Shown here: positions 21,171-27,632 of the stretch, piece by piece
Position numbering within the stretch: the first letter of the stretch is position 1
How the letters are laid out: each line of letters starts with the position of its first letter
Origin: Natrinema mahii
GTDB taxonomy: Archaea > Halobacteriota > Halobacteria > Halobacteriales > Natrialbaceae
Direction of reading: 5' to 3'
Assembly: GCA_000690595.2 (NCBI GenBank)
Contig: JHUT02000003.1
Span: forward strand, 186,001-250,000
Length of the DNA: 64,000 nt
Translations under genes and position numbers: made by a program
The notes under the pieces: model-generated
The model's database searches: none
Seen by the model: only the letters and a program-made list of their open reading frames with translations
What the model was told of the DNA's origin: nothing

Positions 21171-21806
21171 TCAGAGCCATTCGACGCGATACTCACAGCG
21201 GTGATCGCCGTCCGATCGACACTGATCGCCGACTTCCTCGACCTGTACGGGGTTGTCGGCGAACTTCTTCGCGACGCCCTTGATGAGCCCCTTATCGAAT
21301 TCGCACGGGTAGGGGTTCTCACAGATCATCACGCCCTCGTTCGCTCCCTCCTGTCGGAACTCGTAGGAGCCGATCTCGCTGCCGCGGTGGTTCTGATGGT
21401 AGGCCGTCTCGATCGCCGGTAAGGCGTTCTCGACTTCGGTGAGGTCCGGCGGAAACTCGACGTGTTCGGGGACGTTCTGGCCCATGTTCCGCATCCTGAC
21501 GTCGCCGTACTCATCGCGCATATCGTACAGCATGGCAAGCGGGATCTGGAGCGGATACCACTCGTCGGGCTCGATGTCCTCGAGTCCGTATTCGGCGAGT
21601 TTGGACGTGACCTGTTTCCCCACGAACGACGAGATCGATTCGCCGGCAGCGATATACGACAGGGGACTCCGCCCGATCACTTCCGCGTCCTCGAGTGATG
21701 CATCGAATCCGATTCGATCGTCCACTGCCTGCAGTTCGTCGCTGGACTGTGACTCCTCGTCGGCGCTCCCGACGAGTCGCTTGATCCAACTGTTCAGTGT
21801 CGCCAT
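21171..21806 (-). CDS. V4R-like small-ligand-binding domain protein
   Basis: A 211-aa soluble protein. After a variable N-terminal ~50 residues it has an alpha/beta region ending in a C-x-x-x-GD-x-x-C pattern (QCRSDGDHRCEYRVEW), characteristic of the V4R domain. That fold is related to 4-vinyl reductase subunits and to heme/NO-binding sensors. Two further cysteines lie in MICENPYPCEFDKG, so a bound metal or heme-like ligand is plausible. The start is the ATG at 21806. It is convergent with the aldehyde dehydrogenase (70 bp between stops). A sensory or ligand-carrier role is inferred; no output domain is fused to it. Confidence 0.6.
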   Translation of the reverse strand: MATLNSWIKRLVGSADEESQSSDELQAVDDRIGFDASLEDAEVIGRSPLSYIAAGESISSFVGKQVTSKLAEYGLEDIEPDEWYPLQIPLAMLYDMRDEYGDVRMRNMGQNVPEHVEFPPDLTEVENALPAIETAYHQNHRGSEIGSYEFRQEGANEGVMICENPYPCEFDKGLIKGVAKKFADNPVQVEEVGDQCRSDGDHRCEYRVEWL

Positions 21807-22662: not shown

Positions 22663-23271
22663 ATGGCGGCAGAAGACCAACCCGACCCTGACGCGCCGGC
22701 CGGCGGCGCGGACGTTTCGGCCAAGCTGTTCGGCGAATGGGAGATCGGCGAAATCGAGTACGCCGACCCCTCGACCGAACGCTACATCACGGTGTCGCCC
22801 GTCGCTCACACCGCGGGTCGCCACGCCAGCAAGCAGTTCAAAAAGTCCGAGATTTCGATCGTCGAGCGCTTTATCAACCGCTTGATGCAGACCGAGGAGA
22901 ACACGGGCAAGAAACAGCAGGTCCTCAACTACGTCAGCGACGCGTTCGACATCGTCCACGAACGCACCGAGGAGAACCCGATTCAGATCCTCGTGACCGC
23001 CGTCGAGAACGCGGCCCCGCGCGAGGAAACCGTCCGCCTGAAATACGGCGGGATCTCGGTCCCGAAGGCCGTCGACGTCGCGCCCCAGCGCCGCGTCGAC
23101 CAGGCCCTGAAGTTCCTCGCCGAGGGCGTCTACAACGACTCGTTCAAGACGACCACTGACGTCGAGGAGGCCATCGCCAACCAGCTCATCGGCGCGTCCA
23201 ACTACGACGTCGGCACCTACGCCGTCAGCCAGAAAGAAGAGAAAGAGCGCGTCGCGGCAGCCGCACGCTAA
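22663..23271 (+). CDS. rpsG: 30S ribosomal protein S7
   Basis: A 202-aa uS7 that organises the 3' domain of 16S rRNA and forms part of the E-site. It has the archaeal N-terminal extension (about 35 acidic residues), then the SPVAHTAGRHASKQF and IVERFINRLMQTEENTGKK regions, VENAAPREETVRLKYGG, and the C-terminal NQLIGASNYDVGTYAVSQKE. It begins 2 bp after rpsL and is surely co-transcribed. In most archaea fusA follows closely; here 4.4 kb of other genes intervene. Confidence 0.98.
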   Translation: MAAEDQPDPDAPAGGADVSAKLFGEWEIGEIEYADPSTERYITVSPVAHTAGRHASKQFKKSEISIVERFINRLMQTEENTGKKQQVLNYVSDAFDIVHERTEENPIQILVTAVENAAPREETVRLKYGGISVPKAVDVAPQRRVDQALKFLAEGVYNDSFKTTTDVEEAIANQLIGASNYDVGTYAVSQKEEKERVAAAAR

Positions 23272-23399: not shown

Positions 23400-23465
23400 A
23401 TTTCCCCAATATGTGTTATCTTAAAATAACTTTATTACGCGGGGCAACTACAGTTCGAGTGTACC
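23400..23465 (+). promoter_or_regulatory. AT-rich promoter of the DUF7503 peptide gene
   Basis: Between 23396 and 23440 the base composition becomes strongly AT-rich (ttatttcccc, then cttaaaataactttatta), in contrast to the GC-rich flanks. A TATA-like cttaaaata at about 23420-23428 would give a start of transcription near 23450, about 15 nt before the ATG at 23466. Confidence 0.55.
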
Positions 23466-23594
23466 ATGACGGATGTTACACAGCACCTCAAGAATCACCC
23501 GCGACTGATCGGCGCACTGTTCATGATCCTGTTGCTACTCGGACAGGCGGGCAACGTCGCAGCAACGAACGCGAGCCGCTTCGTCGGTCCCTAA
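23466..23594 (+). CDS. DUF7503-type small membrane peptide (42 aa)
   Basis: A 42-codon gene: an N-terminal TDVTQHLKNHPRLIG segment, one hydrophobic helix (ALFMILLLLGQAGNVAA), and a short polar tail ending RFVGP. This matches the haloarchaeal DUF7503 pattern of peptides with an H-PRLIG motif and a single transmembrane helix followed by a glycine-proline end. The function is unknown. It has its own AT-rich promoter. It is convergent with the CHAT protease gene (98 bp between ends), whose other neighbour encodes a DUF7504 protein. The strong promoter, clean start and family resemblance make it real despite its size. Confidence 0.8.
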   Translation: MTDVTQHLKNHPRLIGALFMILLLLGQAGNVAATNASRFVGP

Positions 23595-23691
23595 ACTCCG
23601 GACCGGAGTCCGCGGACCGAGACCTGGTTTCGTGTGCCAGTGCCGACCGCCGTCGTTGATCGACCGCGGAGCGCAGTGATTGGGTCCTCCT

Positions 23692-25773
23692 TCACGGCTC
23701 GAGTCCGTCATCGACGAGATCGGTACTCCACCGGACGTCTCCGTCCCGTATGACGGGGAACAACGCCTCGTCGAAAAACGCCTCGAGTTCCGACTGCGTC
23801 ACCGACATTGGTCCCGTCTCTCCGGGGATAACGAAATACGAATCGACCGCGTCGATATGTGGAGAGAGGACGCTTCCGTGTCGGCCGTTTGCCGCCGTGT
23901 ACGCGACGATATTCGCCGTGAGCGTGTCGCCGTCCTCGGATACCAGACAGACGTTCGGGATCCGCGTTTCGGACTGTGCGATCGTCGTTCTTCCATCGCC
24001 GACCAACTGGTACTGTTGGCCGACGACGTTTTGCTGTCGGGCGATGTCCAGCGTGCTGTAGAGGGAGAACCCGAGATTCAACAGGCGGGAGACGAGGACG
24101 CCGACGCTGACTGCGCCGCTGTTGACGACGTCACTGAGCGTGACGATCCCGCCGATACTCCCCCGTTCGACCAGATGCAGCCCCTGCTCGTGGGACCGGC
24201 ACGCGTTTAATAAGAACGCCTGTATTCCGACGGAATCCACGTCTGTGGCATCTACCTTCCCGTCCGAGCAGTGAAACCCCTCGTCATCGATATGCCCGAT
24301 GTAGTGGAAGAAGTCGCTGTCTTTGGCGAGCACGGCCGCGAGGTCGTCCGTCGAGAGATCGTAGTGGACCGTCGTCTCGAACGGGAGCTCCGCACGGGTC
24401 CCGTAGGCCCCGTTGACGCCGTCGAGTTCCTCGCGCATAGCCGGATCGTTACAGACGACCTCGATTTCGATGGGACCGTCTTTCGGCGTCCGACCGATAT
24501 CGTTCCGGTAGGCCGTGACGGACGTGGTGCTGACGATCTCCGCGTCGTCGATACCGGTCCACGATTGCTCGATCGTCGGCGCGTCCGACTGGTTCGTTGC
24601 CGTCTCGAGGCCGGCGTTCCCACGGACGGGTCCGGGCTGTGCGCTTCGCACGAAATCGTCCCGCGTGAACGCTTCGATCGCCCGCTCCGCGACCGGCTCC
24701 GGCCCCGTCCGTGCTCGGTCGCGTTCCCCCGTCGTGACGACCGCGAGATCGTAGGCGAGAAACGGAAGAAACGGCACGTGATCGGCGGTCGGCTCGAGCC
24801 GTGTCTCGAACTGCCAGTCGGGGAGATGGGGGTCCAGTTTCTCGGCGGGGCTCTCGAGATAGCTCTCGAGTCGGTCGGCCAACGATCGGTCGTACGCGTC
24901 CGCGATGTCGAAGTCGATCACCGGTTCGATCGATCGTCGTTCGCGCGACGGGAGGGGGGTGTTCCCCTCGGTCCTGACGATGCAATCGAGGAAGAACGTC
25001 CGTTTCAGTACCCGCTTGACTGCCGTCTCGAACCCACTCGATCCGTCGAGCGAATGCGTATATCCGTTCTCGGTGACGATCCGCGGACTCGATCCGGGAA
25101 CGACCGCCGCATCGAGATAGTACGCAAGCGGTGCGACGGCGAACACGTGTCGAAGCGTCGCGGGAACCGCGATCCGAACGCTGTGGTCCCGATCGAGAGG
25201 GTCGGGTATCCGGAGGTCGCTACCGAGTTCGAGACGCGGTGGATGCCCCCGAAGCGTCGGATACGCCCGCTCCGGTGACGTCGTCTTCAACTCCGATCCG
25301 AACGCCGACACTGCGGCCATCAGGTCGGGTGGAGCCGTCGTCGTCGTGATCGTTCTCGCCGGGCGCTTGTGTAACGATCTGGCACCGAGGACGACGGTCG
25401 TCTCCTCACCGAAGTTGAGGTACGTCTGCTCCCCGTCGGAAAACACCTGTACGGAACCGGTGACACGGGCGTACACCTTCAACGGACCGGAGAGATCGAG
25501 CGTATACTCGTCCGGCGGGAATCCCGTCTGCTCGGTCGGGCTCACCTCGGCGAGCAGCAGTCCGTCCGAGTCCCGAACGAGGACCGTCTCGGTCTTCGGT
25601 AACGCGATCGAATCAGTGGTCACCGTCACTGCGGACCCGATCGGAAAGTCGATCCGCTCGGTGTCCGCCACCGACGGAGCGACCGGACTCCCGGTCTCGA
25701 GGTGATAGCGGTGTCGCTCGATCGGATCGATGATCTCCACGCCGCGTTGTGTCGACTCGAATTTCGGTTTCAT
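23692..25773 (-). CDS. CHAT-domain caspase-like protease
   Basis: A 694-aa protein. The C-terminal ~300 residues are a CHAT (caspase HetF-associated) peptidase domain, with catalytic His494 in HYIGHIDDEGF and Cys525 in LLNACRSHEQG. GSIGGIVTLSDVVNSGAVSVG follows, with the usual fold elements. The N-terminal ~390 residues contain beta-rich segments and no TPR repeats, unlike many bacterial CHAT proteins. CHAT enzymes are cysteine proteases, in several systems activated to cleave partners in cell-death or defence responses. The start is the ATG at 25773 (MKPKFES); the frame is open upstream but overlaps the DUF7504 gene. It lies 71 bp behind that gene and is probably in one transcript with it. 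Confidence 0.85.
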   Translation of the reverse strand: MKPKFESTQRGVEIIDPIERHRYHLETGSPVAPSVADTERIDFPIGSAVTVTTDSIALPKTETVLVRDSDGLLLAEVSPTEQTGFPPDEYTLDLSGPLKVYARVTGSVQVFSDGEQTYLNFGEETTVVLGARSLHKRPARTITTTTAPPDLMAAVSAFGSELKTTSPERAYPTLRGHPPRLELGSDLRIPDPLDRDHSVRIAVPATLRHVFAVAPLAYYLDAAVVPGSSPRIVTENGYTHSLDGSSGFETAVKRVLKRTFFLDCIVRTEGNTPLPSRERRSIEPVIDFDIADAYDRSLADRLESYLESPAEKLDPHLPDWQFETRLEPTADHVPFLPFLAYDLAVVTTGERDRARTGPEPVAERAIEAFTRDDFVRSAQPGPVRGNAGLETATNQSDAPTIEQSWTGIDDAEIVSTTSVTAYRNDIGRTPKDGPIEIEVVCNDPAMREELDGVNGAYGTRAELPFETTVHYDLSTDDLAAVLAKDSDFFHYIGHIDDEGFHCSDGKVDATDVDSVGIQAFLLNACRSHEQGLHLVERGSIGGIVTLSDVVNSGAVSVGVLVSRLLNLGFSLYSTLDIARQQNVVGQQYQLVGDGRTTIAQSETRIPNVCLVSEDGDTLTANIVAYTAANGRHGSVLSPHIDAVDSYFVIPGETGPMSVTQSELEAFFDEALFPVIRDGDVRWSTDLVDDGLEP

Positions 25774-25844
25774 TGGAACGGTAGCTCGTGCGATTGCCCG
25801 CCCCTCGACGGGGTCGTCGCTCGTGACTTGCCTTCCCCGAGCCG

Positions 25845-26543
25845 TTACCCGGGACCGACAGAGAGCCAGCCGGAGCTGCGGTCGCCGTCCTCGATCGTCC
25901 ATCGCTCCTGGTAATCGCCGTTTTGCTCGCGGAGTTCGACGATGACATCGAAAAGCGGCGAGAGGGTCTGGACGATCCTGGCGTCGCGCTCGACCGGCAG
26001 GTGGGAGTGGGCCATCCCGTCGACGTCCCGCGTTCGCCCGTTAATGAGATGGAGGAACTTGAACACCCGCTGGCGGCCGTACTCCTCGAGCAACGGGAGC
26101 AGTGAATCGATCCCCAACCTCACTTCGGCGGGCTCGAGCGTTGTGGTGTCGGTTTCGAAGTTCTCGATCGCCCGCTCGATGGCGATCCCGAGGTCGGCGA
26201 GCGACTCCGCCTCGATCGGTTCCGGCCCGACCGACGGTGTCTCCCCCGGCTCGGCCGTTGTGGCGTTGCGAGCCTGCGAGTCGTAAGCGATGAGCGAGAG
26301 GGCCGCCGACCCGGTCTCGTCGACGTGGTGTGTGACGTGGTGTGGGCCCGCCGCCGTCGAGACGAGGATGCGTCGCCGGGTCCGATCGGCACCACAGCCG
26401 AGCAACCGCCGACAGGCGTCCCGGCACTGCTCGGGTCGAACGGAGCCGACGACGAGGACGCTTACCCCCTGGCGTTTCAACCGCGCTAGCTCGTCGGAGA
26501 ACCCCCCGTCAGTGGCACCCCCGCGGTCCGTTCCCGAGAACAT
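25845..26543 (-). CDS. DUF7504-type protein, degenerate KaiC/RecA-like fold
   Basis: A 232-aa protein with a RecA/KaiC-like order of strands. The first strand and loop SVLVVGSVRPEQCRDAC stand where a Walker A motif would be, but G-x-x-x-x-GK[ST] is absent. The late strand RLGIDSLLPLLEEYG resembles a Walker B/KaiC segment, and FKFLHLINGRTRDVDGMAHSHL follows. This matches haloarchaeal DUF7504 proteins. It likely no longer hydrolyses ATP and may act as an adaptor. The start is the ATG at 26543; a GTG at 26558 is also in frame. TATA-like tttattg lies ~30 bp upstream (about 26576-26582). It is first in the two-gene unit with the CHAT protease. Confidence 0.7.
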   Translation of the reverse strand: MFSGTDRGGATDGGFSDELARLKRQGVSVLVVGSVRPEQCRDACRRLLGCGADRTRRRILVSTAAGPHHVTHHVDETGSAALSLIAYDSQARNATTAEPGETPSVGPEPIEAESLADLGIAIERAIENFETDTTTLEPAEVRLGIDSLLPLLEEYGRQRVFKFLHLINGRTRDVDGMAHSHLPVERDARIVQTLSPLFDVIVELREQNGDYQERWTIEDGDRSSGWLSVGPG

Positions 26544-26673
26544 TCCTCTATGTTCCACCGGTTCTGTTCATCAAACAATAAACGTTCGGGTCGAACAGTA
26601 GGCGGGTTCGGGGAGGGGTGTCACGTCATGTGCCGTGGGCGTCGATGTCAGATCCCGTCCGTCACGACGGAAC

Positions 26674-27429
26674 TCAATCGGCTGCGGGGCCGTCACCGCC
26701 GACGTACGACCGGGTCGCATCGACCAGGGCCTGTCGGTAGGTACTCGCGTCGGTCTCCTGCCCGAGTTCCCGGAACCGCCGTTTGAACTCCTTGAAGTCG
26801 ATGTCCGGGGCGTCCATCGCGGCCGCGTGTGCGAGGTCGTAGAGGCGGTGGTCCCTGTCGACGAGGTCGTGTCGCTCCGCGAGCGCGAGCGCGAAAGCCG
26901 CGTTCACCGCCGTAATCTCGGGGTCGGCGCTGGCGGACAGCCGCTCGAGGCCGGGACGCGGCGGCGTTTCGGGGCGGTCGGCGACCGCCGCGGCCAGGCT
27001 CGACTCGAGAAACGACAGCAGTTTCTCGCCGGGACCGACCGAGAGAGTGATGTCGTCGGCGTAGATGTCTTTCATGTGGTTGGCGATCTGGTAGCAGTGC
27101 GAGAGCTTGCGGCGCTCGACGCTCTTGCCGGCCAGCGCCAGGTAGAGCACCTCCTCGGTCGACTGGGTGTGTGAGGGGTGGTCCTGTTCGTGACGCGCCA
27201 TGTGGGCGAACTCGTGGAGGGCGAGCTCGCGGGCCATCGCGCTCGAGGCGGCCTGTCGCGAGATGTTCAGGACGTGGTGGTCGTCGTAGTGGGCGGCCCA
27301 GGTCCGTTCGTCGGGGTCGTCCCGGAGCTGGACGTGGACCGGCAGCGAGAGGTCGTGTTCGGTTTCGAAGCGGTCTCGGGCACTGAGGAATGGAGAGGTC
27401 GGGCCCGGTCCCTGCACGCGAATATCCAT
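26674..27429 (-). CDS. DUF5781-type zincin-like protein
   Basis: A 251-aa soluble protein with a zinc-metalloprotease signature. HEFAH (His72, His76) lies in the helix ELALHEFAHMARHEQ, followed by a Glu-containing helix (STEEVLYLAL) that could give the third ligand. It begins MDIRVQG and resembles the haloarchaeal DUF5781 family. Whether it cleaves proteins is untested; the HExxH helix and following helix make a gluzincin-like fold likely. The start is the ATG at 27429; the preceding in-frame residues are arginine-rich and not conserved-looking. It lies between the DUF7504 gene and fusA, 130 bp from the former on the same strand. Confidence 0.75.
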   Translation of the reverse strand: MDIRVQGPGPTSPFLSARDRFETEHDLSLPVHVQLRDDPDERTWAAHYDDHHVLNISRQAASSAMARELALHEFAHMARHEQDHPSHTQSTEEVLYLALAGKSVERRKLSHCYQIANHMKDIYADDITLSVGPGEKLLSFLESSLAAAVADRPETPPRPGLERLSASADPEITAVNAAFALALAERHDLVDRDHRLYDLAHAAAMDAPDIDFKEFKRRFRELGQETDASTYRQALVDATRSYVGGDGPAAD

Positions 27430-27632
27430 GTGTGGTACTACCAAGAGCCGACGGGATTTGACTCTTTTGTGCGTTCGCGCGGAGCGGACGTGCTGGCCCG
27501 GCATCGGTACAATAATGCGAGTGATTCACTCACTCAAATTGGATATTCCAGCGTTCGAACCGGGAACGACGGCGGATTCCGGCGCCGACGAAACACTACC
27601 CTTTTGACCCCACTGGCGGTAATGGGGGGTAT

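Follow-up and report, generated by a model that had tools for sequence, protein, structure and literature searches.

What connects a gene for a 42-residue peptide with the large protease-like gene that faces it? The question is raised by positions 23466–26543 of a 64,000-nucleotide stretch of Natrinema mahii DNA (assembly GCA_000690595.2, contig JHUT02000003.1, positions 186,001 to 250,000; hereafter the window), where genes for a DUF7503 peptide, a CHAT-fold protein and a DUF7504 protein lie together. Caspases and separase have prokaryotic relatives in the CHAT proteases; to our knowledge, the way in which the latter are switched on is known in a few CRISPR-linked cases only. We found that the peptide and CHAT genes are paired convergently in related genomes, that the C-terminal tail of the peptide is constant while the precursors that carry it differ, and that credible peptides accompany only those CHAT proteins that have an intact catalytic dyad. 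We propose, with a probability of roughly one half, that the locus is a protease–peptide module in which a C-terminal tail of the form hydrophobic-x-Gly-Pro acts as a ligand or docking element of the CHAT protein.

A CHAT-fold protease gene and its convergent DUF7503 partner

The features of the locus, in window coordinates, are as follows.

23466–23594, forward strand: DUF7503 peptide gene, 42 amino acids, MTDVTQHLKNHPRLIGALFMILLLLGQAGNVAATNASRFVGP; match to PF24335 over residues 1–42 (expectation value, E, 3e-19)
23431–23437, forward strand: TATA-like element TTTATTA at −35 to −29 of the peptide ATG; leaderless-type promoter
23466–23564, forward strand: Sec-signal-like part of the DUF7503 peptide, residues 1–33, with HPR(13), a hydrophobic core and VAA at −3/−1
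23565–23591, forward strand: C-terminal tail of the DUF7503 peptide, TNASRFVGP, nine amino acids with a Gly-Pro end
23692–25773, reverse strand: CHAT-fold cysteine protease gene, 693 amino acids, starting at M44 of the listed open reading frame (ORF)
23695–24576, reverse strand: C-terminal CHAT (caspase-like) domain, about residues 400–693, from AlphaFold2 and Foldseek; approximate boundary
24292–24294, reverse strand: predicted catalytic His494 codon of the conserved dyad
24199–24201, reverse strand: predicted catalytic Cys525 codon of the conserved dyad
24724–25773, reverse strand: N-terminal domains of the CHAT protein, residues 1–350, from model secondary structure; candidate peptide-recognition part
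25237–25272, reverse strand: N-terminal signature motif of the CHAT protein, ERAYPTLRGHPP, residues 168–179; E168, R169 and R175–P179 invariant in 65 sequences
25845–26540, reverse strand: DUF7504 accessory protein gene; RecA/KaiC fold without a Walker A motif

All three genes were found where the sequence-only reading of the window had placed them, and the peptide that it had called DUF7503-like matches the family profile at full length (68.7 bits against a cut-off of 27). The large ORF is listed as 23692–25902(−), 736 amino acids, and the DUF7504 ORF as 25845–26558(−). The starts of homologues place the true CHAT start at M44 (window position 25773); the protein is therefore 693 amino acids long and does not overlap DUF7504.

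Linkage was followed in a sample of 61 related genomes (132 CHAT-like genes, 65 DUF7503 genes) and in a phylum-wide draw of 295 genomes, which overlaps the first sample and holds 36 DUF7503 matches in genomes outside it; conserved CHAT motifs served to recruit a set of 80 named loci. Counts of genomes and loci are not phylogenetically independent. In the 61 genomes, 64 of the 65 DUF7503 genes are convergent with a CHAT gene and lie directly 3′ of it, at a median gap of 88 bp and a maximum of 285 bp, and the sole unlinked gene sits at a contig end. The second sample gave 58 of 59, the exception (in genome G322) lying 1.4 kb downstream on the same strand. Across its 295 genomes, DUF7503 occurs in 44 of the 50 that have a CHAT gene, compared with none of the 245 that do not. 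The coding status and the linkage of the genes at the locus go far beyond chance.

Departures from the simple pair were also seen. Loci L036–L047 (Natronorubrum, Natronococcus, Haloterrigena and relatives) hold tandem CHAT pairs in the str cluster, in the order CHAT1, convergent DUF7503 and CHAT2, the last running in the same direction, with an intact dyad and without a peptide of its own. At L129 (G143:C1:484000-491000), two tandem near-identical DUF7503 genes stand beside one CHAT gene.

The product of the large ORF has no Pfam, NCBIfam or PADLOC match of its own. PF12770 did not match the window protein or anything else in its genome, whereas it matched 18 of 65 relatives at E ≤ 0.1 (best 1.7e-4), and sequence searches of the PDB with the window CHAT sequence or a profile gave nothing useful. 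The AlphaFold2 model is confident (predicted local distance difference test, pLDDT, 85.7; predicted template modelling score, pTM, 0.86), and Foldseek aligned it with SAVED-CHAT (4e-7), separase (2e-5), gingipain (2e-4) and the bacterial complex 7x8a, which we take to be of the Craspase type. Judged from this model, the protein is a CHAT-fold protease of the caspase–haemoglobinase fold, with predicted peptidase activity. His494, Cys525 and the N-terminal motif E-R-(S/A)-Y-P-T-L-R-G-H-P-P are invariant or nearly so in a 65-sequence alignment; the dyad had been noticed at the outset, and its numbering holds when counted from M44. The N-terminal half is distinctive: the model has a beta-rich domain and, after it, an alpha/beta domain, together spanning 350 residues, and neither the Pfam search nor the model revealed tetratricopeptide repeats (TPRs), in line with the first impression of this region. 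Neither a signal sequence nor a membrane segment was seen in the protein.

The sequence-only reading had proposed that all three families belong together. For CHAT and DUF7503 the association proved obligate, which is more than a tendency to lie within five genes of each other, but DUF7504 is an accessory: its gene lies directly upstream of CHAT on the same strand in 41 of the 77 loci with enough sequence, and elsewhere the upstream genes are unrelated and share no common family. DUF7504 was rejected on these grounds as an essential part. Although the family has about five copies per genome, its adjacency to CHAT is still well above chance. Because DUF7504 is accessory on both counts, the core unit is CHAT plus peptide. 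The window protein matches PF24336 strongly (192 bits, E 2e-56), and its AlphaFold2 model (pLDDT 87) matches KaiC in Foldseek at E about 2e-7, KaiC being a weak match by sequence as well. Where a Walker A motif (GxxxxGK[ST]) would lie it has VVGSVRPEQ; a stretch of the VVGSVxxxx type occurs in the family, and no Walker A was found in 35 aligned sequences. The RecA/KaiC order without Walker A, first read from the letters, is borne out, and DUF7504 is plausibly a non-ATP-binding adaptor for some CHAT copies.

The Gly-Pro tail and the precursors that carry it

The DUF7503 consensus, M[ST][DE]...YLxx[NH]P[RK]MxG[VA]LFTxxLLL[ST]QAGxxAA, is followed by a tail of 7–10 residues that ends in Gly-Pro. 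Residues 1–33 have the sequence layout of a Sec signal peptide, and cleavage after them would release the tail. In all 72 distinct DUF7503 peptides of the named loci, an Arg or Lys precedes the core, the residue at −3 is small, that at −1 is Ala or Gly, and the tail is 7–10 residues long. The Gly-Pro end is present in 77 of 88 DUF7503 peptides and makes use of each of the four codons for Gly and the four for Pro; conservation of the tail at the RNA level only was rejected on the basis of this codon variation. An AT-rich block at −40 to −28 in 85 DUF7503 upstream regions points to a TATA box belonging to the peptide gene itself.

In several loci the tail has outlasted the rest of the peptide. 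The hydrophobic part is decayed or replaced and the tail kept in L035, L164 (...AANGGLFTGP) and L163 (...NGGLFTGP), three Natrinema-group loci in which NGGLFTGP is retained and the CHAT genes are intact. A Halococcus-type tail, ...GASACTYSGP, is found in L096 and L103 without the usual hydrophobic part, L082 has lost that part and carries a tandem copy of the tail (...ADGNGGAVSGPYNADGNGGAVSGP), and a Haloplanus precursor ending in ...GNGGAVSGPYNADGNGGAVSGP puts the Gly-Pro end on an unrelated precursor. These cases bear on the idea that DUF7503 is a membrane anchor or localization factor for CHAT, which the hydrophobic helix of every typical DUF7503 would suit; anchor and toxin were also among the roles first suggested for the peptide. 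Since the helix is lost and the tail retained in L035, L082, L096, L103 and L163, and a second CHAT clade has an unrelated peptide that never had a helix, neither a membrane anchor nor a hydrophobic toxin can be the general role, and we regard anchoring as very unlikely.

This second, paralogous clade shares about 37% identity with the window protein and has a member in the same genome at G000:C2:212351-214483. It has no DUF7503 and faces an unrelated small ORF in all 30 loci fetched (L133–L162). The ends of these ORFs, here termed class B, are RxKRVSTYGGP, RISSYGGP, ISTYSGP, SPYTGP and SAYTGP, with several other genera represented too. A TATA box of their own lies at about −38 to −27 of the class B ORFs, which encode precursors without a signal peptide and are here assigned to no family. 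Compared across 29 genes, the nine C-terminal codons are 97% identical at the amino-acid level, with synonymous differences at 41% and nonsynonymous differences at 3%; for codons −14 to −38 the figures are 26% identity and 74% nonsynonymous differences. The alignment, made from the C-terminus without gaps, may understate upstream similarity. On this comparison, strong purifying selection acts only on the C-terminal octapeptide. A 7–10-mer would be freed by cutting at the RxKR that precedes VSTYGGP or at the DUF7503 VAA site, both of them plausible cleavage positions.

The same codon pattern speaks to a type I-like antisense arrangement, in which the convergent transcripts would matter and the peptide product would not. 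The stops of the peptide and CHAT genes are 0–100 bp apart in most loci, so that the transcripts would overlap at their 3′ ends. However, it is the amino-acid sequence of the tail that selection maintains while synonymous codons vary freely, and the promoters of the peptide genes are conserved, which makes the antisense explanation extremely improbable.

The long ORFs that share these loci with CHAT served as a control. A convergent ORF of ≥20 codons ending in Gly-Pro-stop, at −30 to +350 bp from the stop, flanks 68 of 85 CHAT genes compared with 6 of 499 of the control ORFs (Fisher p 5e-65); within 40 bp the counts are 55/85 and 1/499 (p 5e-54). The p values carry no correction for relatedness. 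The window genome has 10 Y-x-G-P-stop sites, against 13 for the reversed pattern; as there is no excess, the tail is not a general feature of the proteome. By the same count, YxGP-ended proteins were rejected as general CHAT targets in this genome, most of the sites besides the class B peptide being chance ORF ends. Also in this genome (C1 and C10), L212 and L213 are paralogous small CxCG/CPxC zinc-type ORFs that end in TYRGP and VYRGP; no CHAT gene was seen downstream of either.

The catalytic dyad and the proposed role of the tail

In the CHAT tree, the DUF7503-linked and the class-B-linked genes form the two main groups, and no convincing peptide was found for basal groups or non-haloarchaeal relatives. 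L122–L125, distant homologues from non-haloarchaeal members of the phylum, have neither DUF7503 nor a convincing Gly-Pro-tailed peptide, and L124 lacks the dyad. Both dyad residues are kept in 159 of 169 homologues. All 88 DUF7503-linked genes have the dyad intact, which extends to every such homologue what had been read from the window protein; so do 47/48 genes with another peptide and 25/33 peptide-less genes, 11 of the 33 being second members of tandem CHAT pairs beside a DUF7503. The sole dyad-less case among the 48 is L191, whose partner ORF is spurious; the ORFs of L123, L189 and L191 seem to end in Gly-Pro by chance, and the dyad comparison did not count them as peptides. All ten dyad-dead homologues lack a credible peptide. 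L131, L166, L167, L168, L172, L175, L177 and L181 are CHAT paralogues that have lost the His/Cys dyad, have no peptide and are apparent pseudo-protease branches.

The pairing, the orientation, the intact dyad, the folds and the selection on the tail are direct results of the computation. As the tail stays constant across different scaffolds and peptides occur only with intact CHATs, we infer that the tail docks on CHAT and governs or feeds the protease. The proposed module has two genes and an optional third, DUF7504. CHAT would be an active-type cysteine protease in the cytoplasm and the convergent small gene would provide a peptide partner dedicated to it. The functional element of this peptide would be a free C-terminal tail of about eight residues, ending hydrophobic/aromatic-x-Gly-Pro, which CHAT may recognize, most likely through its conserved N-terminal part (candidate site ERxYPTLRGHPP), so that the tail gates or occupies the protease. 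With the DUF7503 tail placed behind a Sec-signal-like helix, how much free tail the cytoplasm receives would be set by export and by cleavage of the signal peptide; in other copies, soluble precursors would bear the tail. DUF7504, KaiC-like without the usual ATP-binding loop, may be an optional partner of some copies. Binding of the tail to CHAT and gating of the protease, like export of the DUF7503 form, the direction of control and the targets, are put forward here as proposals.

Several observations weigh against this docking scheme or limit its support. DUF7503 looks built for export and CHAT looks cytoplasmic. Eleven of the 88 DUF7503 peptides end otherwise (GTIS, GTIR, CTID, GT and others), so that Gly-Pro is not strictly required. 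About a dozen CHAT copies with an intact dyad have no peptide nearby, and none that was convincing was found elsewhere within the fetched regions. The dyad was lost only about three times on the tree, too few events for statistics, and the association of its loss with the lack of a peptide is suggestive. In favour of the scheme, residue 174 of the PTLRGHPP motif changes in four of eight independent lineage pairs in which the tail loses Gly-Pro, and never the reverse, but the association (p 0.125 by independent pairs) concerns a column picked from many; such covariation of tail residues with CHAT columns is not significant and is a lead only. Among the peptides with other ends, those of L100, L107, L110, L057 and others finish in GTIS, GTIR, GAIR or CTID, and residue 173 or 174 of the CHAT PTLRGHPP motif is often changed there.

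The export-like build of DUF7503 also suggests cell–cell peptide signalling, in which DUF7503 would be exported and cut after VAA, and a Gly-Pro peptide of 7–10 residues would be taken up to control a CHAT receptor-protease, by analogy with RRNPPA quorum sensing. The n/h/c layout and −3/−1 rule in 72/72 peptides, a short tail of near-constant length and the divergence of the residues preceding Gly-Pro with CHAT lineage are all consistent with this, and the tandem-repeated tail of L082, the duplicated peptide gene of L129 and the peptide-less CHATs resemble the chatterers and eavesdroppers of RRNPPA systems (PMC9765709). However, class B precursors lack a signal peptide, the receptor would be a non-TPR protein, there is no linked importer, and the one haloarchaeal density signal studied, that of Haloferax volcanii, is proteinase K-resistant and was judged a small molecule (PMC12240190); we regard signalling of this kind as possible but doubtful. 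A link to DdfA/CirA was rejected, the H. volcanii quorum-sensing study, with its proteinase K-resistant disk-forming signal, having no overlap with the locus (PMC12240190). We tentatively consider a wider formulation, an archaeal peptide-signal family in which Gly-Pro-ended peptides, released from DUF7503 by signal peptidase or derived from soluble precursors, would be specific ligands of their paired CHAT receptor-proteases. If true, this would be an archaeal communication or surveillance system with a caspase-like protease as receptor and, if the peptides are exported, it could be a first archaeal peptide signalling route.

The distribution of the genes bears on a further alternative, a conflict or cell-death module in which CHAT cleaves or frees a membrane peptide, or is held in check by it, and DUF7504 senses a trigger that leads to death or arrest, by analogy with Craspase–Csx30 or protease–gasdermin pairs. 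The CHAT relatives found by structural search act in CRISPR-linked proteolysis and the DUF7503 core could be membrane-seated, yet soluble peptides stand in for DUF7503 in other copies and nearly half of the loci lack DUF7504. No PADLOC model matches any part of the module, and no CHAT homologue was found in phages or viral contigs, so that there is no virus link; these searches gave no connection to phage defence. CHAT is present in 54 of the 61 related genomes, often in several copies, a pattern more housekeeping-like than that of a patchy defence island. We therefore consider a conflict or death module unlikely. Twenty-five haloarchaeal plasmid records carry a CHAT gene; the labels that it bears in three annotated ones are ‘hypothetical’ and ‘caspase family protein’. 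At most one of these three lists a gene where the peptide would lie, in a plasmid gene table that is incomplete.

In the window, the three genes sit between rps7 (22663–23271) and DUF5781/aEF-2, a site common to 15 of the 80 named loci, all in Natrialbaceae-type genomes. The str-cluster setting first described for the locus is right as to the site, but the module is widespread, mostly chromosomal, often present as several paralogues and not str-specific. Beside aEF-2, the str-cluster protein DUF5781 (26674–27504, reverse strand) contains HEFAH, an HExxH motif, and matches the IrrE/M78 peptidases weakly (E 4e-4); it is probably zinc metalloprotease-like. A V4R-domain protein (21171–21806, reverse strand), upstream of the ribosomal cluster, occurs in the vicinity of just 2 of the 80 CHAT loci.

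Comparison with known systems

The window peptide and its DUF7504 neighbour are above-cut-off members of PF24335 and PF24336, Pfam entries without a function. In the open-access literature, subscription literature being outside the search, we found no paper that names DUF7503 or DUF7504 and none that links haloarchaea with CHAT domains. The components belong to known fold families, and we found no described system with their pairing, convergent layout and Gly-Pro tail logic. They define a broadly conserved archaeal CHAT group, often with several members per genome, in which the probable control element is a separate gene with a short C-terminal tail; a tail so short and defined makes activation, substrate and specificity directly testable in genetically tractable haloarchaea.

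The CRISPR-linked CHATs (SAVED-CHAT and TPR-CHAT/Craspase), our best structural matches, share the C-terminal CHAT fold and the His/Cys dyad, but the present module has neither a SAVED nor a TPR domain, has another N-terminal region and uses a dedicated convergent peptide of 30–60 amino acids instead of a large substrate such as Csx30. No cas genes were found among the CHAT neighbours inspected. Unlike protease–gasdermin systems, the partner is this small peptide and not a gasdermin. Type I toxin–antitoxin loci likewise have a small hydrophobic peptide facing an opposite transcript; here, however, the opposite gene encodes a conserved protease and many of the partners are non-hydrophobic.

Closer in logic is DegS, a serine protease with a PDZ domain that is activated by the free C-terminal tail (outer-membrane protein YxF-COOH) of stress-exposed porins. 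Control of a protease by a short free C-terminal motif is what we propose for the CHAT module, although DegS is an unrelated PDZ serine protease and its tail comes from porins and not from a dedicated neighbouring gene. RRNPPA systems (Rap–Phr, PlcR–PapR, AimR) are similar in having a small adjacent gene with its active module at the extreme C-terminus and, as in the DUF7503 form, a Sec-like signal; their propeptides may also hold repeated copies of the module, and their receptors may lack a peptide (PMC9765709), as seen occasionally here. The module differs in its archaeal origin, convergent genes, Gly-Pro end and signal-less second peptide class. Since its receptor would be a CHAT protease and not a TPR protein, membership of RRNPPA fails, and the resemblance lies in the working logic.

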